A stretch of DNA of 22,888 nt from a virus. The stretch covers positions 1 through 22,888 of the IMG/VR virus record IMGVR_UViG_3300025138_000387. The stretch is one strand, 5' to 3'. A program made the position numbers and the translations under genes. Of this stretch, positions 770 through 11,044 are shown one piece after another (positions within the stretch are counted from its first letter, which is position 1; the number at the start of each line of letters is the position of its first letter). The notes under the pieces were generated by a model. It did not search any database, was not told the origin of the DNA, and saw only the letters and a program-made list of their open reading frames with translations.

Positions 770-1408
770 TTATTTTTTATTTATTTCGTAAAACATTTTG
801 TCGCTATCTTCTGTAATCCAATTTTTGTTTTCAACGTTCCACTCTGTAGTTTGAACATTATAGTCTGGAATATCGCTATTAAATGTAAAGTTAGAAATGT
901 TCCACAGAATACGATTATTAGGCTGAATTGCATAATTACCGTTATCAAGAGCCAATACATGGCCACACTTGTGTTGATCAGGGATTTCACTATGTTCTGT
1001 ATCCAAAATATTACTTTCTGGATGAGCCCAATCAATTGTAAATAGATATTCTCCATAATAAAAATTTTTATCTTTACCAAAATATTTTCCACGTTGAGAG
1101 GTTAGATAACCAAAGCTATGAACACTAGGATAATAACTAAAACTGTTCCACAATTGTAACTCGTCGACTTGCATATCGGGCACCTTGGATCTGTCATGCG
1201 ATTTTTGGAAAAACGCAGAGATAGGCAATCGAAAAAAGATTGCGCCATTCGGTAACATAATGTGAAATAATGTGGCAGCTCCTGACATACTTGTGAGACC
1301 AAAGATAACACACTCTTCACTTTCTCCTTGATGTGATTTAAAGTCATATAAATATTCCTTCCTTACTTTACAATAAACGGGTGGTATATCTGCATTTAAA
1401 TAAGCCAT
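770..1408 (-). CDS. Conserved phage protein of unknown function next to PolA
   Basis: The 212-residue protein begins MAYLNADIPPVYCKVRKEYLYD and is soluble, with no signal peptide or membrane segment. Its ATG overlaps the polymerase stop codon (TAATG at 1408), so translation is probably coupled to polA and the product probably acts in replication or early takeover. The N-terminal 70 residues (GLTSMSGAATLFHIMLPNGAIFF...) look like a compact beta-rich domain. I recall related sequences beside replication genes in other marine podoviruses, but no biochemical function is known to me. Alternative frames inside it (781-1092 and 1102-1347) lack support and are treated as shadows. Confidence 0.85.
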   Translation of the reverse strand: MAYLNADIPPVYCKVRKEYLYDFKSHQGESEECVIFGLTSMSGAATLFHIMLPNGAIFFRLPISAFFQKSHDRSKVPDMQVDELQLWNSFSYYPSVHSFGYLTSQRGKYFGKDKNFYYGEYLFTIDWAHPESNILDTEHSEIPDQHKCGHVLALDNGNYAIQPNNRILWNISNFTFNSDIPDYNVQTTEWNVENKNWITEDSDKMFYEINKK

Positions 1409-3270
1409 TATTTAATCTCCCCCCAATTATCTCCTTTTTCATAATCAACTTTGTTAGGAACTTGTAGTTCAACTGCTGATTCCATTATAGAAATAATTTC
1501 TTCAGCCTTCTTATCAGATTCTACAGAAATATCAACCTCATCGTGAATTTGAATGTGAGGTACAATACCATTTTCATAGAGTGCTACCATACTTTTCTTT
1601 GTCATATCTGCTGCCGATCCTTGTATTAATTTATTTAAAGCTTTGTACGTAAACGCACGTTTTAATGGCTCATCATATTCTTTCCTAGCCATTTCAAGTG
1701 GTAGTGGTTTAAATACACCAAACTGTGTAGGTTGCCATAGATCAAAATGACACGCCCTACCTCCTAAAGTTCTAATTTTACCACGATCATTTGCTTTACG
1801 AGATACATTGTCCATCAATTGTTTAACAAACGGTGCTTTGGTATGGTATTGTCTAATCAATTTTTCAGCTGATTCTTTTTGTAAACCAAGTTCTGACATT
1901 AATTTATTTTTTCCCATTCCATACATTAACCCAAGGTTAATTGTTTTAGCTTGCTTACGTTCGATCCCTGCCATGTCTGCTACGACTTGGTGGAAATCTG
2001 CATCACCTGTATTGTATGCATCTACAATTTCATCAACACCATCTAAGTTTTGTAACTTTGCATAGTGTACTAAAATTCTAGGTTCTTGTTGTGAGTAGTC
2101 AAACGTTCCCCATTTAGTTTTTTCTTCTGGAATAAATATAGATCTAATCATCGGTCCGATCTCCGGGTGCCTCGCTGGAATCTGCTGTAAGTTTGGATTA
2201 CTCATAGAGAATCTACCAGTGACGGTTCCACCTTGATCTGATCGTATTTGATTTATGTCTGCATGGATCCTACCCTTATGTGCATGCTTTGTAATAGAAT
2301 CTATAAAAGTTGTATGCGCTTTATTAATCTCTCTTGCATCTGCAATTGATCTTGCTAACTCATGAGGATGATTTTGTAAAAAGTTTTTAGTAAAACTAGG
2401 CTCATTACTTTTTTCAGTTCTATCATAAGGTAGTTTTAATTTATCAAATGCTTTAGCGATAGATCTTGCTGCATGTATTTCTACATCAATACCTGTTAAC
2501 TCTTTGATTTTACTAAGTATTTTTTTCTCTCTTACAATTAAATTTTTCTTTAATTTAGCTGCATGTTCAAGATCAACTCTTACACCTTTGAATCTCATGT
2601 CAACCAAACAAGGAAATAATTTAGTCTCAAGATTAAATACATCCATAAGTTCTTGATTTACAAGTTCTATACTTAATCTTTGCCATAACTTTAATGTAGC
2701 TTCAGCATCACGTTCAGCGTACTCACCTACATACATCGCAGGAAGTTTCCACATATCTGCTTTAGGATTAAGATCATAACTTTTAGCTGCTTCTTGTAAA
2801 ACTTTTTCATCTTTACCAAGGCCTACATAATGTTTTGCTAAAGTATTTAATGCATAAGACATTCTATTCTCATCAATTAATGAAGCTGCAATCATAGTAT
2901 CAACTATCTTACCTCTGATTTTTATACCAGCAGATCTTAACCAACAAACATCATACATTGCATTGTGAAATATAAAGGTAGTTTTCTCTTGATTAACTAG
3001 ATCTTGAACCCACTGTAAAACAAGTTTTCTGTCCATATTTCCACCACCTTCGTGTCCAATTGGATAATAACCAGACCAGCCTTCTATGGCTACTGCAACG
3101 CCAGCAATGTGGCCTTTTCCAACAACACTACCTGACCCTTGGGTCATTAAATGTGGATCATAAGTTTCTAAATCAATAGCAACTTCTTTACATCCAGATA
3201 AATCTTTTAGTTCGTCTGGTGCAACCCATTCAGTTTCAGGTGCAAACAATGGCATTTGGGTTCTTCTCAT
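1408..3270 (-). CDS. polA: Family A DNA polymerase (PolA/T7 gp5-like) with 3'-5' exonuclease
   Basis: The 620-residue enzyme has an N-terminal DnaQ-like proofreading domain (DLE at 33-35, FHNAMYD at 101-107, YAERDAE at 184-190) and a family A polymerase domain. Motif A is DYSQQEPR at 391-398 (catalytic D391), motif B contains R438 and K442 with NLGLMYG at 445-451, and motif C is HDE at 576-578. The catalytic residues are present and there is no 5' nuclease domain, as in T7-like phage polymerases. Residue 446 is Leu where E. coli Pol I has Phe762; Leu at this site is a recognised marine-virus class. It replicates the phage genome. It overlaps DUF3310 upstream by 4 nt and the unknown gene downstream by 1 nt, so it sits inside one operon with the helicase and primase. 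Confidence 0.97.
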   Translation of the reverse strand: MRRTQMPLFAPETEWVAPDELKDLSGCKEVAIDLETYDPHLMTQGSGSVVGKGHIAGVAVAIEGWSGYYPIGHEGGGNMDRKLVLQWVQDLVNQEKTTFIFHNAMYDVCWLRSAGIKIRGKIVDTMIAASLIDENRMSYALNTLAKHYVGLGKDEKVLQEAAKSYDLNPKADMWKLPAMYVGEYAERDAEATLKLWQRLSIELVNQELMDVFNLETKLFPCLVDMRFKGVRVDLEHAAKLKKNLIVREKKILSKIKELTGIDVEIHAARSIAKAFDKLKLPYDRTEKSNEPSFTKNFLQNHPHELARSIADAREINKAHTTFIDSITKHAHKGRIHADINQIRSDQGGTVTGRFSMSNPNLQQIPARHPEIGPMIRSIFIPEEKTKWGTFDYSQQEPRILVHYAKLQNLDGVDEIVDAYNTGDADFHQVVADMAGIERKQAKTINLGLMYGMGKNKLMSELGLQKESAEKLIRQYHTKAPFVKQLMDNVSRKANDRGKIRTLGGRACHFDLWQPTQFGVFKPLPLEMARKEYDEPLKRAFTYKALNKLIQGSAADMTKKSMVALYENGIVPHIQIHDEVDISVESDKKAEEIISIMESAVELQVPNKVDYEKGDNWGEIK

Positions 3271-3506
3271 GAGTAGTCCCTTTCTAATATCATTTCTAAA
3301 TAGTGTATAGCTTTCTTCACGTCCTCTTCCTTTCCCTTGTATTGATGTCTACAGATATATTTTATAGCGTTGCCTTCTGCGAAAAGCAAATTATTTTCAT
3401 TAATAAATTCTGCAGGTTGTATTTTCATGTTCTTGTAATGTTTCCCGCCCACTTGTTTATCTAGTGAATCGTAGTTAGTTCCTTTAAATATATCTTTATT
3501 GGTCAT
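3267..3506 (-). CDS. DUF3310 (SaV-like) family protein
   Basis: The 79-residue protein carries the DUF3310 signature: DKQVGGKHYKNMKIQPAEFI near residues 16-35, then EGNAIKYICRH and KKAIHYLEMILE. The family is common in tailed phages, usually among replication or nucleotide metabolism genes. I believe T7 gp1.7 (a nucleotide kinase) contains a related domain, but this protein is much shorter and kinase activity cannot be claimed from the sequence. It overlaps the helicase stop (3503) and the polymerase start (3270) by 4 nt each, implying translational coupling within the replication operon. Confidence 0.9.
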   Translation of the reverse strand: MTNKDIFKGTNYDSLDKQVGGKHYKNMKIQPAEFINENNLLFAEGNAIKYICRHQYKGKEEDVKKAIHYLEMILERDYS

Positions 3507-5011
3507 AATATATAAGCACGATCAAAGTCTTTTGGATCTACAATATGTAATTCACGCTTCGCTCTTGTTGCACCTGTGTAAAATAATCGATGTAATTCAT
3601 CTGGATCATTACTTAAGGTTTCAAGTGCAGCGCCTGTTAGATCTTGCATCAATAAAACTTTATCAGCTTCTCCTCCCTTTGCTCCATGTATGGTTGACAT
3701 TGTTATACGAGGATTTTTATTTATAGCTTCTCCATTCGCCCTCATGTTACGAATGTAGTTTTCAGTAATGGTATCCAATCCTTCAAAAGATTCAAACCAA
3801 ACTTTATCTGTTATTAATCCATGTTTTTCTTGGCATTCTTTTAGTGTGTACTTACTTTCTGAATGCAATGTTTTTCCTTTTCTAAAACCTTCAAGAACAT
3901 TTGCTCCAAGATATTCATATATATTTTTAATTTCTAAATGATTTAACATTTCTTCTTTACGCCAACTTTCCCAATTGTTTAAAGCTAACAATAGTTTTAA
4001 AGGAATAGAGTTCCTACCTTTGTATTGATAGTACCAACCTTGTAGTTCACATAATTCTTTTACAGGATCTAGAAAATAGTTTGCCGAAGATAATACTAAC
4101 CAATTGCCTTGACCCATGTCAACTTGAGTAACATCAGAATATCTTTTTAAAATACCTTCTTCATCTCTAGGTTTATATTTTTTATCAAACCTATTTTGTA
4201 CTTTGTTTATTATATGTTGTGATAGTTCATGGATAGGTCCACCTGGTATTCTATATGATTGGTCTAATACTTTAATGTCATTAACTTCTTCTTTCAAAGC
4301 TATAAAATGATCTACATCAGCTCCTGCCCATTTGAAGATTGCTTGATCATCATCCCCTGCAATATAAGTTTTCTTTGCTCTACTCCAAAGTTTTCTAACC
4401 ATTTCCCATTGTATTAAAGATAAATCTTGTGCTTCATCTATAAATAATACTTCAAAACTAGGAGCAATATCTTGATCAATAAAATCAATTAAAAGATCAT
4501 TAAAGTCTTTTAAACCTTTTTCTTTTTTAAATCGTTCTAACTCTTCTGCTAATAAAAATAATGTGCTTCTCTCTATGTCTAATATATTTTGTCTTGAATC
4601 ATAGTACTCTAATAGATCCATACGTTTAACGGCTGCCGTGTTAATAATTGTTAAGTATTCATTATCTGAATTAAATGTACCATCATCACTTGAAAACTTC
4701 GCAGTCTTAATAGGTATGCCACATTTCTGTCCAAATTCCTTATAATCTTCAAACTTCATCATCTTTTCTTTAGTCATTCCTAAAGCTCTAAATGCATAAG
4801 AATGTAAAGTTCTGAAGTTATCTAGATCATTATCCACATCTAGACTAAACTTGTCAGCTGCTCTATTGGCAGCTTCAGTTGCTGCTTTCTTTGTAAAGGA
4901 AAAGTAACCTATTTGTTTAGGTCTAATCCCCTGTTTTATGAACTCGTCGACCAAGTTTAACAACGTTGTTGTCTTGCCTGTTCCCGGTGGTCCTAGTATT
5001 ATTGTTTTCAT
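3503..5011 (-). CDS. UvrD/Rep-type superfamily 1 DNA helicase
   Basis: The 502-residue protein has a full SF1A helicase motif set. Walker A is GPPGTGKT at 7-14, motif Ia is FSFTKKAA near 37-44, and TLHSYAFRALG follows at 68-78. The Walker B DEAQD is at 192-196, motif III GDDDQAIF at 219-226, motif IV includes QSYR at 251-254, motif V is STIHGAKGGEAD and motif VI TGATRAK at 479-485. It should unwind duplex DNA 3'-5' during replication or recombination, using ATP. At about 500 residues it is compact compared with UvrD or Rep (about 700) and closer in size to phage helicases such as Dda. The RBS (AAAGGA) and the first 89 nt overlap the preceding small ORF. Confidence 0.93.
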   Translation of the reverse strand: MKTIILGPPGTGKTTTLLNLVDEFIKQGIRPKQIGYFSFTKKAATEAANRAADKFSLDVDNDLDNFRTLHSYAFRALGMTKEKMMKFEDYKEFGQKCGIPIKTAKFSSDDGTFNSDNEYLTIINTAAVKRMDLLEYYDSRQNILDIERSTLFLLAEELERFKKEKGLKDFNDLLIDFIDQDIAPSFEVLFIDEAQDLSLIQWEMVRKLWSRAKKTYIAGDDDQAIFKWAGADVDHFIALKEEVNDIKVLDQSYRIPGGPIHELSQHIINKVQNRFDKKYKPRDEEGILKRYSDVTQVDMGQGNWLVLSSANYFLDPVKELCELQGWYYQYKGRNSIPLKLLLALNNWESWRKEEMLNHLEIKNIYEYLGANVLEGFRKGKTLHSESKYTLKECQEKHGLITDKVWFESFEGLDTITENYIRNMRANGEAINKNPRITMSTIHGAKGGEADKVLLMQDLTGAALETLSNDPDELHRLFYTGATRAKRELHIVDPKDFDRAYIL

Positions 5012-5138
5012 ATTTTTTTAGTTTCCTTTCTGTCATACTTAACTTTGTTTCTGTTTTCTCTAGTTTTTCCTTAAGGTCTTTTATTATTAATCTAAATCTT
5101 AAATGCCAATTTACCCCAACATCATAGTCATATGCCAT
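4923..5138 (-). CDS. Small coiled-coil ORF overlapping the helicase start
   Basis: The 71-residue ORF starts at an ATG that overlaps the HNH endonuclease stop (TAATG at 5138). It fills the otherwise noncoding 127 nt before the helicase ATG. Residues 14-45 are highly charged and helical (LKEKLEKTETKLSMTERKLKK), a likely coiled coil. The last about 30 residues are read in a different frame over the helicase Walker A region, so that tail is constrained by two proteins. No family was recognised. The coupled start and helical composition favour a real gene, but the low-complexity Lys/Glu run and overlap keep confidence moderate. Confidence 0.5.
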   Translation of the reverse strand: MAYDYDVGVNWHLRFRLIIKDLKEKLEKTETKLSMTERKLKKYENNNTRTTGNRQDNNVVKLGRRVHKTGD

Positions 5139-5683
5139 TAAAATAATTCTTTCAGTAAACCTACTTTAAATATTTGTTCTTTAGTTCTTACTCTTAACCC
5201 TTTAGAATTTTCAGAACGAGTTACAAATCTTAAATTTTGCAATCGATAGTTCCAAGGCTTACCATCAATATGATCAACAACTGTTATGTCATAATCATAA
5301 GGATCTAATTCTCCTGGATTTAAAAAGGCTCTGGCTACTAATTTATGAATACAAATACTTATGTTTTTTCTTTTTAAAGAATTTTTTCTTGAATCAATTG
5401 TTTGTAACATTACATATGGATATTCAATAGTATCTCTAATAACTACATGTTGAGTTTTAATTTTACAATTTTTCCAATTAGTATCTATGATATAAGGAAA
5501 ATCACCTGTGTTTAATCTTTCATCAAACATCCAAAAAGGGTGTTTTCCTCCTGTTGGTTTAATAAAATATCTTTTAGAAACTACATTATGATTAGGAATA
5601 ATATCTGCGACATCTATAGTTTTATTATCTATATCTAAATGAGAATGTTCTTTTTTAAAAAAATCTAATTGTTTATCATTCAT
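5138..5683 (-). CDS. Free-standing HNH homing-type endonuclease
   Basis: The C-terminal half of this 181-residue protein is an HNH nuclease domain. IHKLVARAFLNP (112-123) leads into VDHIDG (136-141), then NYRLQNLRFVT and SEN (145-159), giving the His138-Asn-Asn pattern of HNH_3-type phage endonucleases. The first about 100 residues are less recognisable and may bind target DNA. It lies exactly between the primase and helicase genes, joined by 1-nt overlaps on both sides, a usual position for homing endonucleases in phage replication modules. It probably nicks or cuts DNA at a site in related phages. No intron boundaries were seen in the adjacent genes, so it looks free-standing. Confidence 0.9.
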   Translation of the reverse strand: MNDKQLDFFKKEHSHLDIDNKTIDVADIIPNHNVVSKRYFIKPTGGKHPFWMFDERLNTGDFPYIIDTNWKNCKIKTQHVVIRDTIEYPYVMLQTIDSRKNSLKRKNISICIHKLVARAFLNPGELDPYDYDITVVDHIDGKPWNYRLQNLRFVTRSENSKGLRVRTKEQIFKVGLLKELF

Positions 5684-7227
5684 TAAAAGTCATCCTGTTG
5701 ATATGGAACTTTAGATAAACTTGCATCTATCTTTTTCATTGTTTTAATTTTTATTAATCTTGGTTGTTGTTTTTTAATACTTACTCTTATCTCTTCTACA
5801 AAAACATCATCATGGTATCCTTGTTCTTGAGTTAACCTTTTAATTAAATTACCTGTTTTAGTTTTGTCCATCTCCCAATGATTCTTCTTAGCAAAGTTAT
5901 AAAAGTCTTCCATTCTAAAATAAGTAAACTCTCTACTGTCATCAGTGTATGGAAGTTTGTTAAATATATCATCCATTGTTCTAGCTAATTGTCTATTGGT
6001 TGTCCAATCTTGAAGTAGTCCTATCATTTCATTTATAGGGTCTAGAGATTCTAAAGGTTGAATCTGTTGTAGGTTTTGCATCATTGGCCTTAAAAATAAT
6101 TCTTTCCAATCTTTTGGTTTTGGAACAGGCACTATTAAGTTAGCTTGATCTAAACATGCTAATGCAAATAAAGGTGGACTATAAAGTTGTTCTGATTTTA
6201 ATTCTATTCTAGTTTTATCAACATCTAAAAACCATTGTGGTGGATTAGAGGTATACTTTGTTAAGTTACCTAGAGCTGGCATTTCTTCTTCTCCAAACCC
6301 TACTCCAAATCTTTTTGTTCTACATAAACCAGATTGACATACAGAGTTTATAGGTGCATCCTTACATCTATACTTGTCATAACCTTTTCTATTTATTGAT
6401 TTAATTAACTGTTGAACCTCACTATTACTTAGTGGTGGCTCCATGTATTTCATATTAGCTTTTACAATTTCATCTTCCCAACTATCTGGATTAGATTGTT
6501 TGTAATAAACTGCTACATTAAATAATGCATTATTTCTAGACCCCTCACCAAAACCTATTGATGCCAATTTGTTTAAGCAAGGAGGTCCATACGGAAAAGC
6601 TTCTTCTATTTTTTTTTCTTCAATCTTAATTTCTTCAATTTCTTTTTTGGTTTTTGAGTAAACATCATAGAGCTGATAAAATTCCTCAAGTGCACAACCG
6701 GTGCCATTATCGTTGATAGCATATCGTAGTCCTTTCATGTTATTGTGGTAAGGTAAGTTTAAGAAATTACCAGTGTCACCACGTTCCACTAATATCTCTG
6801 TTTGTTTAGGGAAGATTTCTGAACCTTCATATCCTAAAACTACTGCAAATTTTTTAAGAGTATTCTGCATAAGAGCTGCAGAAATATTTTCTTTGGTAAA
6901 TAAAAAGACGTGTGCTCCACCAGATTTAGATCGGCAGACTATTAAAGGGAGTTTAAGATTCCTAACACTTTTAATGAGGCTAATGTGATCAAGATCGTAT
7001 TCGTCAATATCAATGCACCCCCACCTACAATCATTGTTTTCTGTGATAGGGATAATCCCAAGGGCAGGTCCTTCTCCCCCAAGGTGATTTGTCCAGAGTT
7101 CGTCGGTAACGGGTTTACGAACAATAAAAGCTTTTCCTTTTTGCTTTCCATTTTCTCCACGTTCTCCAGGTTGGTATTGTCCATATGCTATCGTTAATCC
7201 ACTAAAAATTTGTTTGAACTTTTCCAT
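5683..7227 (-). CDS. AEP-superfamily primase (primase-polymerase) with PriCT-like and Cys-cluster regions
   Basis: The 514-residue protein has an N-terminal archaeo-eukaryotic primase core: metal-binding DID at 73-75 within CIDIDEYD, the nucleotide-binding SKSGGAH at 100-106, and a later LVERGDTGNFLNLPYHN block. Residues about 225-285 (EGSRNNALFNVAVYYK to VQQLIKSINRKGY) look like a PriCT helical domain. They are followed by a C288-x8-C297-x4-C302 cluster ending RTKRFGVG, probably a metal site. The C-terminal about 200 residues were not recognised. It should synthesise primers for PolA, replacing a DnaG/T7 gp4-type primase. The start is supported by AAGGA 5 nt upstream, just after an intercistronic hairpin. 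It heads the HNH-helicase-DUF3310-PolA gene string. Confidence 0.88.
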   Translation of the reverse strand: MEKFKQIFSGLTIAYGQYQPGERGENGKQKGKAFIVRKPVTDELWTNHLGGEGPALGIIPITENNDCRWGCIDIDEYDLDHISLIKSVRNLKLPLIVCRSKSGGAHVFLFTKENISAALMQNTLKKFAVVLGYEGSEIFPKQTEILVERGDTGNFLNLPYHNNMKGLRYAINDNGTGCALEEFYQLYDVYSKTKKEIEEIKIEEKKIEEAFPYGPPCLNKLASIGFGEGSRNNALFNVAVYYKQSNPDSWEDEIVKANMKYMEPPLSNSEVQQLIKSINRKGYDKYRCKDAPINSVCQSGLCRTKRFGVGFGEEEMPALGNLTKYTSNPPQWFLDVDKTRIELKSEQLYSPPLFALACLDQANLIVPVPKPKDWKELFLRPMMQNLQQIQPLESLDPINEMIGLLQDWTTNRQLARTMDDIFNKLPYTDDSREFTYFRMEDFYNFAKKNHWEMDKTKTGNLIKRLTQEQGYHDDVFVEEIRVSIKKQQPRLIKIKTMKKIDASLSKVPYQQDDF

Positions 7228-7249
7228 ATATTCCTTTTTTCTTTCTTTG

Positions 7250-7275
7250 TAAAGGGGATCTTACGATCCCCTTTA
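7250..7275 (-). terminator. Strong intercistronic hairpin (11-bp perfect stem, 4-nt loop)
   Basis: Positions 7250-7260 (TAAAGGGGATC) pair perfectly with 7265-7275 (GATCCCCTTTA) around a 4-nt loop. The hairpin fills most of the 56-nt gap between the 256-aa gene and the primase. On the transcribed minus strand it is followed by only three Ts of its own stem and then ACAAAG, so it is not a strong intrinsic terminator. Partial termination, mRNA end protection or processing would explain it better and could lower primase expression relative to the upstream abundant proteins. Confidence 0.55.
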
Positions 7276-7283
7276 AGTTAAAT

Positions 7284-8054
7284 TTAGTACGGCGTACTAT
7301 CTTTAGCCTTCTCTTCCACATCTGCTTTTGTTTGCACGTTCCCTTTAGAGACATTTCCGTTAAAGTCTTTAGCCATTAGGTATAAAGACTTATCTTCTTG
7401 TCCCATGATTCTGTCTTGTGTAACAGACCAACCATACCAAGAACCTTTATCGTTCTTTTGTAGTACAGATTGGAGATTGTACACAACCCCATGCATTGGT
7501 GGTATTGCAAATCCACCCTTACCGTCAGCTATTTGTATGGTTTTCATCATAGAATTCCATTTTTTACTAACGTTAAGTTGTGTTGATTTCATAGTGATCA
7601 ACGCAGGTGTAAATCCACCTGTTTTAGTTTCAACCAAAACATAATAAGAAGCTGTCTCTTCTAAATAGTTACCGTTAGGTAATCTAATTTTAGATCCATC
7701 TCTCTTACCTGTTTGGATTACCGGACTATTCGGTAGGTGGATAGCAACCGGAGCACCGGGTCCATCTCCTCTATCCGACCATTCTGGATAATCCTTTTTG
7801 TAGTAACAAGGAATAATCTTGATACCTTTTTTACCATCGAACAATTCGCTGGTAACAGTATTGTAGATATTGCCTGGTTTAGCACCGTCTACATACTTCG
7901 CATCACCTTCAGTTACCTGTGGTGATAGTTGTCCTAAGATTCTGATAAACGGTAACGCCATATCTTCTTGCGTCATGTTCTCAAAACCTTTTTGCAGGTC
8001 ATCACCAAATAGTGAAACTGAACCTGTGTCTTTTTTAGTTACTTCATTACTCAT
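7284..8054 (-). CDS. Conserved phage replication-region protein, possibly ssDNA-binding
   Basis: This 256-residue soluble protein begins MSNEVTKKDTGSVSLFG, with MALPFIRILGQLSPQ near residues 32-46. It then has a beta-rich central part containing GIKIIPCYYKKDYPEWSDRG, and ends in an acidic, charged tail (DVEEKAKDSTPY). Small acidic-tailed proteins early in replication operons are often single-stranded DNA-binding proteins, and this would supply one otherwise missing in the window, but no OB-fold motif can be proven by eye. Related sequences occur in other phages next to primase and polymerase genes. The start has GGAG about 9 nt upstream. Its first 17 nt are identical to those of the preceding gene. 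Confidence 0.85.
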   Translation of the reverse strand: MSNEVTKKDTGSVSLFGDDLQKGFENMTQEDMALPFIRILGQLSPQVTEGDAKYVDGAKPGNIYNTVTSELFDGKKGIKIIPCYYKKDYPEWSDRGDGPGAPVAIHLPNSPVIQTGKRDGSKIRLPNGNYLEETASYYVLVETKTGGFTPALITMKSTQLNVSKKWNSMMKTIQIADGKGGFAIPPMHGVVYNLQSVLQKNDKGSWYGWSVTQDRIMGQEDKSLYLMAKDFNGNVSKGNVQTKADVEEKAKDSTPY

Positions 8055-8067
8055 TACACATTCTCCA

Positions 8068-8631
8068 TTATTTTCTGGTTATTTTAGTTTTATCTTTAAT
8101 CCATGTATTAAAGACATCAGAGGGCATGTCGAGACCAGCCCCGACACGCTCTTTGAATAGGGCAGTTAATGTAGCCCAAGCCACATCAGATTTCTGTTCT
8201 GGTTGAAATCCATTTTCTGCCGCAAGGTTAAGCAACTGCTCCGCCTTGTCATCTTCTCCACGACCAAAAGTTACAAAGATATTGTTTTTAATAATATCCT
8301 CTAACTTGTTGTCCCGAAGCCATTGATAGGCTGCAACTCTTTTAGCTTCATCTTTTGGAAGAGTGCACCTAAATTCTTTTTTAACTTTAACAGACGAACC
8401 ATCGTCTAGTTTAATTTCACTTAAACCCTGCTCGGCTAATAATTCTGGTATTACTATTGAACCAATATTATCTGCTTTTTCTTTTAATTGTTTTAAGTGT
8501 TCTTCAGCTGAAGCTACTTGGTCTTCTATCATTTTTAATTTATGACATTCAGCTGCGATTGTAGATATCTCTACATTGTCTAAAAGATCTTTTGAATCAT
8601 TTAGCATCATGTTTGTTACTTCATTACTCAT
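8068..8631 (-). CDS. Conserved phage coiled-coil protein of unknown function
   Basis: The 187-residue protein has an N-terminal helical region (about residues 20-50, AAECHKLKMIEDQVASAEEHLKQLKEKAD) likely to form a coiled coil. This is followed by a mixed domain with LAEQGLSEIKLDDGSSVKVKKEFR and a predicted C-terminal helical part ending VFNTWIKDKTKITRK. Similar proteins occur in phage replication or recombination modules. A Gam-like or single-strand annealing accessory role is possible, but nothing in the sequence proves it. AGGA lies upstream of the ATG at 8631. It shares its first six residues (MSNEVT) with the downstream 256-aa protein. Confidence 0.85.
   Translation of the reverse strand: MSNEVTNMMLNDSKDLLDNVEISTIAAECHKLKMIEDQVASAEEHLKQLKEKADNIGSIVIPELLAEQGLSEIKLDDGSSVKVKKEFRCTLPKDEAKRVAAYQWLRDNKLEDIIKNNIFVTFGRGEDDKAEQLLNLAAENGFQPEQKSDVAWATLTALFKERVGAGLDMPSDVFNTWIKDKTKITRK
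8615..8631 (-). repeat. 17-bp direct repeat at the 5' ends of two adjacent genes (other copy 8038-8054)
   Basis: The coding-strand sequence ATGAGTAATGAAGTAAC is identical at the starts of the 187-aa and 256-aa genes, encoding MSNEVT in both. The two proteins are otherwise unrelated to the eye. The repeat could be a duplicated translation-initiation segment or a trace of recombination. Confidence 0.9.
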
Positions 8632-8634
8632 AGT

Positions 8635-9042
8635 TTATCCTTTCTGATATAGATCGAAATTAATTGGGTAGTACTTAGCCTCTCTTCGATCCCATTTCAA
8701 GAGGTTAAATTTTCCATTTGTATTATCACTTACTATAGCACATGAAATTCCTATTACTGCTGGATCTCCTGTCAATAGTACGTAATCTTGTTCTCTAAAA
8801 TCTCTTAAGTTTTTTTGCATTTTAAAAACAAAAGGACTAGAGCTAAATATAATTTGAGAATCTGGACCAAAGTTTGGTAAACAAATTACTAAGTAACCAA
8901 AATCAGATGCACCTAATATATTTATATTAGCGGGTGGATGTTGTAATACATAAACGAAATTTTCTTTAGGATTTTCTTTTTTAAATAATAAAAAATCTGC
9001 TAAAGATTTTGGTTTATATAATTCAAATATTTTATTTTTCAT
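8635..9042 (-). CDS. Conserved phage protein of unknown function (YVLQHPP / GDPAVIGI motifs)
   Basis: This 135-residue soluble protein is the first gene of the leftward replication block. It contains motifs I recall as recurring in a widespread phage family of unknown function: FVYVLQHPP at about 29-37, a glycine/proline-rich beta region, RDFREQDYVLLTGDPAVIGISCAI at about 79-102, and KWDRREAKYYPI near the C-terminus. It has no signal peptide or membrane helix. It starts about 40 nt downstream of the predicted start point of the leftward promoter at 9083-9112, so it is probably expressed early. Its function is not known to me. Confidence 0.87.
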   Translation of the reverse strand: MKNKIFELYKPKSLADFLLFKKENPKENFVYVLQHPPANINILGASDFGYLVICLPNFGPDSQIIFSSSPFVFKMQKNLRDFREQDYVLLTGDPAVIGISCAIVSDNTNGKFNLLKWDRREAKYYPINFDLYQKG

Positions 9043-9075
9043 TTTTTAACTTTCTATTTTAATTCTATTATGCTC

Positions 9076-9106
9076 TTGACAGAACATATAATAGTATTTA
9101 TATAAT
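9076..9106 (+). promoter_or_regulatory. Sigma70-type promoter for the SNF2 gene
   Basis: TTGACA at 9076-9081 is a perfect -35 box. TATAAT at 9101-9106 lies 19 nt away and TATATA at 9099-9104 lies 17 nt away; either could serve as the -10. Transcription would begin near 9112, giving a 5' leader of about 20 nt before the ATG at 9133. Confidence 0.75.
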
Positions 9107-9112
9107 TGTCAA
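9083..9112 (-). promoter_or_regulatory. Overlapping leftward sigma70-type promoter for the replication block
   Basis: On the minus strand a perfect TTGACA (plus 9107-9112) is followed 18 nt later by TATGTT (plus 9083-9088), a 4/6 match to the -10 box. An alternative TATATG lies at 16 nt. It reads toward the gene starting at 9042. It is physically interleaved with the SNF2 promoter, so polymerase binding at one should exclude the other. Confidence 0.55.
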
Positions 9113-9132
9113 CTAGAAAGAAGAAAATAATT

Positions 9133-10566
9133 ATGAATTATAAATTTAAAACAAAACCTTATGCACATCAAATTACTGCATTAGAAAAATCATGGGATAA
9201 GGATGAGTATGCTTATTTTATGGAAATGGGTACAGGTAAGTCTAAAGTATTAGTAGACAATATTGCCATGCTTTATGATAAAGGTAAAATAAATGGCGCA
9301 TTAATTATAGCACCAAAAGGAGTTTATAGAAACTGGTTTTCTAGTGAAATTCCAACACATTTAGTTAGTCATATACAACCTACAATGGTATTATGGACTG
9401 CTTCAACATCCAAAGCAAAGGATAAAGAGTATCAATCATTATTTGAAACAGGACATGATCTACACATCCTAGTCATGAATGTTGAGGCATTCAGTACTAA
9501 AAAAGGTTTGGAGTTTGCGGGTAAATTTTTAAGAACCCATAGAACTTTAATGGCTATAGATGAATCTACCACTATAAAAACTCCCACAGCTAAACGTACT
9601 AAATCTATTTTAATGCTTGGTAAACAAGCAAACTACAGAAGAATACTTACAGGTTCTCCTGTAACAAAATCACCATTAGATTTATATACCCAATGTGCTT
9701 TTTTAAGTGAGCATTTATTAGGGTTTTCTTCCTTTTATACCTTTAGAAATAGATATGCGACTATGTTAGATAGAAACTTTGGTGGACGTAGGGTTCAAAT
9801 TATTGGAGGTTATAAAAGATTAGACGAACTGTCAGAGATATTAAAAGCCTTTTCTTATAGAGTTCTTAAAGAAGATTGTTTAGATCTACCAGAAAAAGTT
9901 TATATTGAAAGAGAAGTAGAATTAACTGAAGAACAAAAACAAGCTTACTCTACTATGAAATCCGCTGCTCTCGCTTTACTAAAAGGTAAAATGGCTACAG
10001 CTCCACATGTACTAACTCAAATGATGCGACTACATCAAATCACTTGTGGTCATTTAAAGAATGATGACGGTACAATAACAGAGATTAAAAATAATAGACT
10101 AGATGAATTGTTAAATGTTCTTGATGAAGTAGAAGGTAAAGTAATTATTTGGGCTAATTATATTTATGATATTGAACATATTGTTTCTGCTATTAAAAAA
10201 AAATATGGTTTGGAATCTGTAGTTCAATACTACGGTGCGATCTCTTCAGATGAAAGACAAAAAACAATTGATCGTTTTCAAGATCCCGATTCCGACGCAC
10301 GATTCTTTGTTGGTAATCCACAGACCGGTGGATATGGTATTACGTTAACTGCAGCTAATAATGTAATTTACTATTCTAATGGTTATGATCTAGAGAAACG
10401 ATTACAATCAGAGGATAGAGCACATAGAATTGGTCAGAAAAAATCGGTAACATATGTTGATCTTATAGCACCAAAAACCATAGATGAAAAAATTAGAAAA
10501 GCGTTAAGAGATAAAATAAATATCGCTAGTGAAATTTTAGGAGAAGAACTAAAAGATTGGATTTAA
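9133..10566 (+). CDS. SNF2-family (SF2) DEAD/DEAH-like helicase/ATPase
   Basis: The protein is 477 residues from the ATG at 9133 and is the only clear plus-strand gene. Motif I is MGTGKS (G33-S37), motif Ia APKGVYRNW follows at about 60-68, motif II is DES at 143-145 (the DExx box) and motif III LTGSP at 172-176. The C-terminal lobe has VIIWANY, TGGYGITLTAANNVIYY and SEDRAHRIGQ at 426-435, the RxxRIGQ-type motif VI of SNF2 proteins. It should be an ATP-driven dsDNA translocase acting in replication, recombination or protein displacement. I prefer 9133 over an in-frame TTG at 9106 because AGAAAGAAG lies just upstream and the TTG sits in the promoter -10. It is flanked by its own promoter and terminator. 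Confidence 0.93.
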   Translation: MNYKFKTKPYAHQITALEKSWDKDEYAYFMEMGTGKSKVLVDNIAMLYDKGKINGALIIAPKGVYRNWFSSEIPTHLVSHIQPTMVLWTASTSKAKDKEYQSLFETGHDLHILVMNVEAFSTKKGLEFAGKFLRTHRTLMAIDESTTIKTPTAKRTKSILMLGKQANYRRILTGSPVTKSPLDLYTQCAFLSEHLLGFSSFYTFRNRYATMLDRNFGGRRVQIIGGYKRLDELSEILKAFSYRVLKEDCLDLPEKVYIEREVELTEEQKQAYSTMKSAALALLKGKMATAPHVLTQMMRLHQITCGHLKNDDGTITEIKNNRLDELLNVLDEVEGKVIIWANYIYDIEHIVSAIKKKYGLESVVQYYGAISSDERQKTIDRFQDPDSDARFFVGNPQTGGYGITLTAANNVIYYSNGYDLEKRLQSEDRAHRIGQKKSVTYVDLIAPKTIDEKIRKALRDKINIASEILGEELKDWI

Positions 10567-10658
10567 AAAATTGGGATAGTAGCAGGTCTCTGGTACTCCT
10601 TTGTACCTAGATTGGTTCGGAGTTTTTTTTGTTTAGTGGCCGTAAGCAAATCAATCAC
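10563..10658 (-). CDS. Possible 31-residue microprotein after speD (uncertain)
   Basis: On the minus strand the frame from a GTG at 10658 is open for 31 codons to a TAA at 10563-10565. The predicted C-terminus LRTNLGTKEYQRPATIPIF looks protein-like rather than random. It begins about 9 nt after the speD stop and its stop overlaps the SNF2 stop on the other strand. Against it: no ATG, no clear RBS, and the same DNA holds a plus-strand terminator and inverted repeat. It may be a gene remnant or a spurious frame. Confidence 0.22.
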   Translation of the reverse strand: MIDLLTATKQKKLRTNLGTKEYQRPATIPIF

Positions 10659-10666: not shown

Positions 10667-11044
10667 TTAAATATCTTGTAATCCAGTTTCGCGGTTAAGG
10701 AACTTGTATTCTATTTTAGTTATGTCAAAATCTTCTTTTATTTTATTACAAATATCTTCTACATTTAATTCACCACAACTATAAACATCAAATTGCATTA
10801 GTGCGGGATTAACTTCATCCCAAATATGCATAGCAATGTGTGATGTTTCAATAATTGCAACGGCTGTAATACCTCGGTTACCTGGCATATCACAATACTT
10901 AACATAAGGACCCATGAATAATTTCATATCGATAGAACGAATAAATTCTTCGAACCAATCTTTTAATTGTTCTTCATCTGTCGGAGCACGTAAAGCTTCA
11001 GCTCTAATAATTAGATGCTTATGCACTAATAAATTATTTTGCAT
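10667..11044 (-). CDS. speD: S-adenosylmethionine decarboxylase homologue (SpeD, class 1B-like)
   Basis: The 125-residue protein matches the short bacterial/archaeal SpeD family. Such proenzymes cleave themselves before a Ser that becomes the pyruvoyl cofactor and classically decarboxylate S-adenosylmethionine for spermidine synthesis. Visible elements are IIETSHIAMHIWDE (64-77), with presumed cleavage before S68, catalytic-type H73 and E77, and FDVYSCGE with C90. The residue before the cleaved Ser is Thr, where Glu is usual (ESH becomes TSH), and the Ser two residues before the His is Ala. Phage SpeD relatives with altered substrate (ornithine or arginine) are known, so AdoMet specificity is not certain. 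There is no speE nearby. It is the last gene of the virion/lysis block, after the endolysin. Confidence 0.88.
   Translation of the reverse strand: MQNNLLVHKHLIIRAEALRAPTDEEQLKDWFEEFIRSIDMKLFMGPYVKYCDMPGNRGITAVAIIETSHIAMHIWDEVNPALMQFDVYSCGELNVEDICNKIKEDFDITKIEYKFLNRETGLQDI

Follow-up and report, generated by a model that had tools for sequence, protein, structure and literature searches.

In a SAR11-type ocean phage, the gap between two divergent gene blocks contains a 37-base stretch that opens with TTGACA and closes with the same hexamer facing it on the other strand. What does such an arrangement do: does it fire in both directions, switch between them, bind a repressor, or serve something other than transcription? 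The stretch belongs to a tailed-phage fragment of 22,888 nucleotides, which we analysed at its full length (the window). The window is close to the complete phage 023Pt_psg01 (81% identity for SNF2, 84% for DNA polymerase), and the Pelagibacter phages HTVC027P and HTVC023P are more distant relatives. SAR11 phages of this group are very abundant in the sea; we found no published promoter map for them in the literature.

The facing boxes and their setting

The facing boxes are present exactly as an original prediction, made from the sequence alone, had placed them: TTGACA at 9076-9081 on the plus strand and at 9112-9107 on the minus strand, with 25 AT-rich bases, GAACATATAATAGTATTTATATAAT, between them. 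Start codons at 9042 (-) and 9133 (+) bound a 90-bp non-coding gap, and the pair lies entirely inside it. The placement between the SNF2 gene and the replication block was likewise right. The SNF2 gene is the only rightward gene adjoining the site, and the adjoining gene on the left, encoding a 135-residue Pam3 gp32-like protein, is the head of the replication block. Core elements resembling -10 boxes exist in both directions, as had also been claimed, though they are imperfect by the standards of E. coli. The elements of the site and its flanking genes are as follows.

9076..9081, plus strand: -35 box TTGACA of the rightward (SNF2) promoter; TTGACA or, rarely, TTGACT in 81/81 clade members chosen by protein
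9099..9104, plus strand: -10 box TATATA of the rightward promoter, spacer 17; TATA at spacers 16-18 in 96/108 unique relatives
9101-9106, plus strand: alternative rightward -10 box, TATAAT, spacer 19, read from the sequence
9107..9112, minus strand: -35 box TTGACA of the leftward (replication block) promoter, from sequence and conservation
9085..9090, minus strand: -10 box TATATG of the leftward promoter, spacer 16; TATA at spacers 16-18 in 73/108 unique relatives
9088-9083, minus strand: alternative leftward -10 box, TATGTT, spacer 18, read from the sequence
9111..9132, plus strand: predicted 22-nt 5' leader of the SNF2 mRNA, from the -10 position and a CA initiator
9043..9077, minus strand: predicted 35-nt 5' leader of the leftward mRNA, from the sequence
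9133..10566, plus strand: gene for an SNF2-type helicase, 477 aa (Pfam SNF2-rel_dom and Helicase_C)
8635..9042, minus strand: gene for the Pam3 gp32-like protein, 135 aa, heading the leftward replication block (domain match)
1408..8631, minus strand: rest of the leftward block (Pam3 gp33-like, gp34-like, AEP primase, HNH endonuclease, UvrD-type helicase, DUF3310-like protein, DNA polymerase A)

Counted from the gap, the leftward block runs through the Pam3 gp32-, gp33- and gp34-like genes to AEP primase, UvrD-type helicase and DNA polymerase A. Replication-type proteins are encoded on both sides of the site. An A-rich AGAAAG precedes each start codon, at 9115-9120 (+) upstream of the SNF2 ATG at 9133, where it is conserved in relatives, and at 9055-9050 (-) upstream of the leftward start codon at 9042.

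How unusual is the pair in its own sequence? The pattern TTGACA-N23..27-TGTCAA occurs once in the window and in 0 of 100 dinucleotide shuffles. TTGACA alone shows no enrichment (14 copies against 17.9 expected) and is hence uninformative; a generic promoter scan found 67 promoter-like sites against 87 in shuffles, and we take scanner matches as no evidence.

Conservation of the facing boxes among relatives

The conservation counts come from sets chosen by SNF2 protein similarity alone, with the gap read afterwards; DNA-pattern searches, which would bias such figures, served specificity only. The facing boxes were found in 81/81 readable sequences of the window's clade (77 perfect, 4 one letter off), a count that takes in the window itself and one SAR11 single-cell contig. 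A second clade has them in 76/76, of which 52 are perfect and 24 differ by a single letter. A third clade has them in 50/78 sequences and another geometry in 22/78, and in one subclade about one third of the members show no leftward box that can be recognised at this distance. Absence of the facing boxes from related genomes had been named beforehand as evidence against the prediction; we looked for it, and the counts do not refute the claim.

The boxes are nearly invariant: only 26 of 1296 box letters differ across 108 unique motifs, and nearly all changes turn TTGACA into TTGACT. The interior is far more variable, with a mean identity of 0.41-0.75, depending on the set, among unique motifs of equal length. 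Aligning 68 unique 25-base forms, a collection that includes pattern-chosen loci, gave 1.8-2.0 bits for the box columns against 0.16-1.4 for the interior; the columns directly beside the boxes reach 0.5-1.4 bit, and the arms have no symmetrical extension. Interior length ranges over N21-28 and is mostly 24-26.

The pair also persists when its neighbours change. The relatives L010/L011, L019 and L071 carry a small rightward ORF between the pair and SNF2, and the pair remains upstream of the inserted ORF; in L013, L015 and L017 the leftward neighbouring sequence differs and the pair is retained. Together, these comparisons strongly support the view that the facing-box site is a functional element. 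The insertions before SNF2 follow position 4837 in L010/L011, 307 in L071 and 4790 in L019, and encode a lysine-rich protein of ~50 aa in two lineages and a protein of ~64 aa ending in CPCCGK.

When viral contigs were searched with a pattern of the two boxes and both TATA cores, free of flanking letters, 114 of the 118 hits fell at the SNF2/replication boundary, and another DNA-pattern search placed 112 of 121 at this gene boundary. In bacterial genomes a pattern containing the -10 boxes matched 33 places. One belongs to a SAR11 single-cell genome and is this phage type; of the remaining 32, 10 fall between divergent ORFs, compared with 6.8 for random positions, and we claim no general bacterial design. 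Pairs of the TTGACATATATAGGATTTTATATTAAAAATGTCAA type (N23) also occur in contigs with no SNF2 match (L180 7719-7759, L190 4385-4425 and L174 4594-4634), in L180 and L190 between short divergent ORFs; these are perhaps the same design in another phage group.

The single-cell relative bearing the pair is a 59.5-kb contig from Pelagibacteraceae bacterium AG-422-I02, which is in line with a SAR11 host for the phage group. This contig (QCMS01000007.1, 59,509 bases) is of full-phage size and carries the replication module together with the promoter pair, so that AG-422-I02 was probably an infected cell.

Two probable overlapping promoters and the alternatives

The spacing of the -10 cores points to promoters in both directions. 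The counts of TATA at spacers 16-18 given above, rightward and leftward, compare with 8.7 in shuffled interiors, a control that ignores kinship. In the window the hexamers are separated by 17 bp rightward (TTGACA-N17-TATATA) and 16 bp leftward (TTGACA-N16-TATATG), both within the 16-18 bp of sigma70-type promoters and both conserved. The leftward -10 is the weaker, with TATA at 16-18 in 27/40 unique motifs of the window's own clade. The commonest form, TTGACA-N3-TATATA-N8-TATATA-N2-TGTCAA, gives spacers of 17 rightward and 16 leftward, and for interiors of 24, 25 and 26 bases exact TATA is commonest at spacers (+/-) of 16/16, 17/16 and 17/17, which are within sigma70 tolerance. Interior length may therefore be able to drift while both promoters stay within tolerance. 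TATATA and TATATG suit alphaproteobacteria, because most analysed promoters there lack the final T of TATAAT (PMC8407463).

In 023Pt_psg01 the gaps between genes are enriched in TTGACA, with 8 copies against 2.3 expected, and at three other places the box is followed by a -10-like hexamer 16-17 bp on. A 408-bp gap of this phage without annotated genes (10194-10601) holds a TTGACA-N17-TATATA opposite to the strand of the surrounding genes, a possible antisense or small RNA promoter.

On this evidence the 37-base stretch is very probably a real double promoter, and the claim of two overlapping divergent promoters gains support from box conservation and from -10 spacing in both directions. HTVC027P, a phage of the same type, has no RNA polymerase gene and depends on that of its host (PMC12753301), and host polymerase would read both superimposed promoters. 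The A that follows TGTC lies 6-8 bases past the last -10 base of either promoter, the commonest distance being 7 for the rightward one and 8 for the leftward; we therefore predict starts at 9111 (+) and 9077 (-), 34 bp apart. From A9111 or nearby the rightward promoter would drive the SNF2 helicase, and from near A9077 the leftward promoter would drive the Pam3 gp32-like gene and the replication block. Read on the opposite strand each -35 box is TGTCAA: 9076..9081 contains the predicted leftward start and 9107..9112 the predicted rightward one, so that each -35 would cover the CA initiator of the opposite promoter ~34 bp away.

Given the usual footprints (-55 to +20), polymerases in the two orientations would cover practically the same ~75 bp, coinciding within ~1 base. 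We infer from this geometry that simultaneous binding is excluded, as the original prediction had it: polymerase would occupy the site in either orientation, never both at once, and alternate between them. Overall we are confident, from sequence comparison, in a reading of the site as two complete, outward-firing, overlapping sigma70-type promoters with mutually exclusive binding, for which co-expression of the replication arms is the likeliest purpose: one short gap would compactly express the module's two arms at a set ratio.

What exclusive binding would mean for the phage is a further question. It had been suggested that the site forms a simple binary switch between SNF2 and the replication block. 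On such a reading, strong exclusive firing would commit the phage to expressing one or the other, perhaps with a regulator to flip it. With consensus hexamers at both -35 positions, the two promoters might have the strength to interfere, and in E. coli strong activation of a bidirectional promoter one way can repress the other; however, the promoters tested there showed little competition at basal level (PMC12825309), and the importance of exclusion may depend on promoter strength. A domain search of the genes flanking the site recognised no domain of the transcription-regulator type. The early genes of HTVC027P are all of unknown function (PMC12753301), which suggests that SNF2 and the replication genes may both be expressed later. 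With replication-type proteins encoded on both arms, expressing them together at a fixed ratio is the more economical reading, and we consider a switch unlikely and unsupported by the present data.

Could the rightward promoter alone be real, with TGTCAA maintained for the start region it provides and transcription of the leftward block beginning elsewhere? The rightward -10 is indeed the better conserved, and almost every relative outside the HTVC023P group retains TTGAC on the plus strand. However, leftward -10 cores at 16-18 stand about eight times above shuffles. Furthermore, several lineages lose TGTCAA with the rightward promoter intact, so that TGTCAA appears dispensable for rightward firing, and what these lineages have instead is a new -35-like box for the leftward direction, 16-17 bp from the -10. 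This makes a solitary rightward promoter distinctly unlikely.

The perfect inverted hexamers, their centres 31 bp (about three helical turns) apart, could also be the half-sites of a palindromic site for a phage or host repressor, and had been put forward as a good operator candidate. An operator would be expected to have fixed half-site spacing and conservation beyond the -35 hexamer. Instead, strict conservation covers the six -35 bases and goes no further, and the distance between the arms varies over 21-28 bp (mostly 24-26), tracking the -10 spacing, as a rigid operator is not expected to do. The hexamer is found singly before -10-like boxes elsewhere in 023Pt_psg01, and HTVC027P-type relatives have TTGACT and TTTACT boxes 39 bp apart around one TATATA: the promoter logic is kept and the palindrome lost. 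Spacing and conservation thus disfavour the operator, which we regard as very unlikely. Finally, it is scarcely credible that the AT-rich inverted repeat is a replication origin or other DNA element rather than promoters: it adjoins replication genes and the GC skew of 023Pt_psg01 turns at this junction, but the turn coincides with the change of coding strand at SNF2, the box spacing obeys sigma70 rules, and the element stays with whichever gene comes first in the rightward unit.

Related geometries and neighbouring observations

The strongly supported promoter reading makes the facing-box site, as judged from its sequence, a variation on already known overlapping divergent promoters. Well-known examples are Tn10 tetA/tetR and E. 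coli bioA/bioB, whose overlapping divergent promoters have known operators (for TetR and BirA, respectively). As in the phage, two divergent promoters share the same few dozen bases between functionally linked genes; the window site differs in having no evident operator or regulator and in that both of its -35 hexamers are full consensus. The bioA/bioB promoters were among those tested in E. coli (PMC12825309). In the bidirectional class described by Warman and Grainger, divergent starts are 7-25 bp apart and -10 bases are shared or overlapping (PMC10268837). The window resembles this class in that one short sequence directs divergent sigma70 transcription in exclusive orientations (PMC12825309, PMC10268837), but it falls outside: its predicted starts are ~34 bp apart, its -10 boxes are separate (9085-9090 and 9099-9104), and the overlap is that of the -35 of one promoter with the start of the other.

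The HTVC027P clade, with a different geometry, does fit the class: there the same gap reads TTGACT-N17-TATATA-N16-AGTAAA, with one common palindromic -10 between two facing -35-like boxes. Another lineage, around L607, resembles it in sharing one -10, though its leftward box is less certain. In HTVC023P-type phages the promoter-like boxes, read by eye, appear back-to-back. Both HTVC027P and HTVC023P have the same syntenic SNF2/replication gap, at which both records begin, but the facing TTGACA pair is absent from both. A tree built from 111 SNF2 proteins separates the HTVC027P-type and L607-type groups, the ones with a shared -10, and places each among facing-box relatives; it requires the facing-box label to change five times (by a quick method, with geometry called by pattern). 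A possible extension, which we offer tentatively, is that the gap is one docking platform with two orientations, each -35 doubling as the opposite start, that competition for occupancy fixes the ratio of SNF2 to replisome, and that the gap has been rebuilt repeatedly between separate and shared -10 forms.

From the site come two start predictions that are exact enough to test and are conserved in hundreds of contigs, and also an evolutionary series: one and the same divergent gap has separate -10 boxes in some relatives and a single shared -10 in others. Such a series could help to explain the origin of bidirectional bacterial promoters, and whether polymerase competition is under selection.

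Several features of the neighbourhood deserve mention in their own right. The HNH endonuclease gene at 5138-5683 (-) lies between the primase and UvrD-type helicase genes; it looks like a homing-type insertion, because no gene is annotated in the equivalent gap of 023Pt_psg01 (3347-3469). A perfect 11-bp hairpin, TAAAGGGGATC-TTAC-GATCCCCTTTA, occupies 7250-7275 in the gap that separates the primase gene from the Pam3 gp34-like one; it is possibly a processing or termination signal within the replication block. Beyond SNF2, an S-adenosylmethionine decarboxylase gene (10667-11044, -), a likely auxiliary metabolic gene, adjoins an M15 peptidase endolysin.
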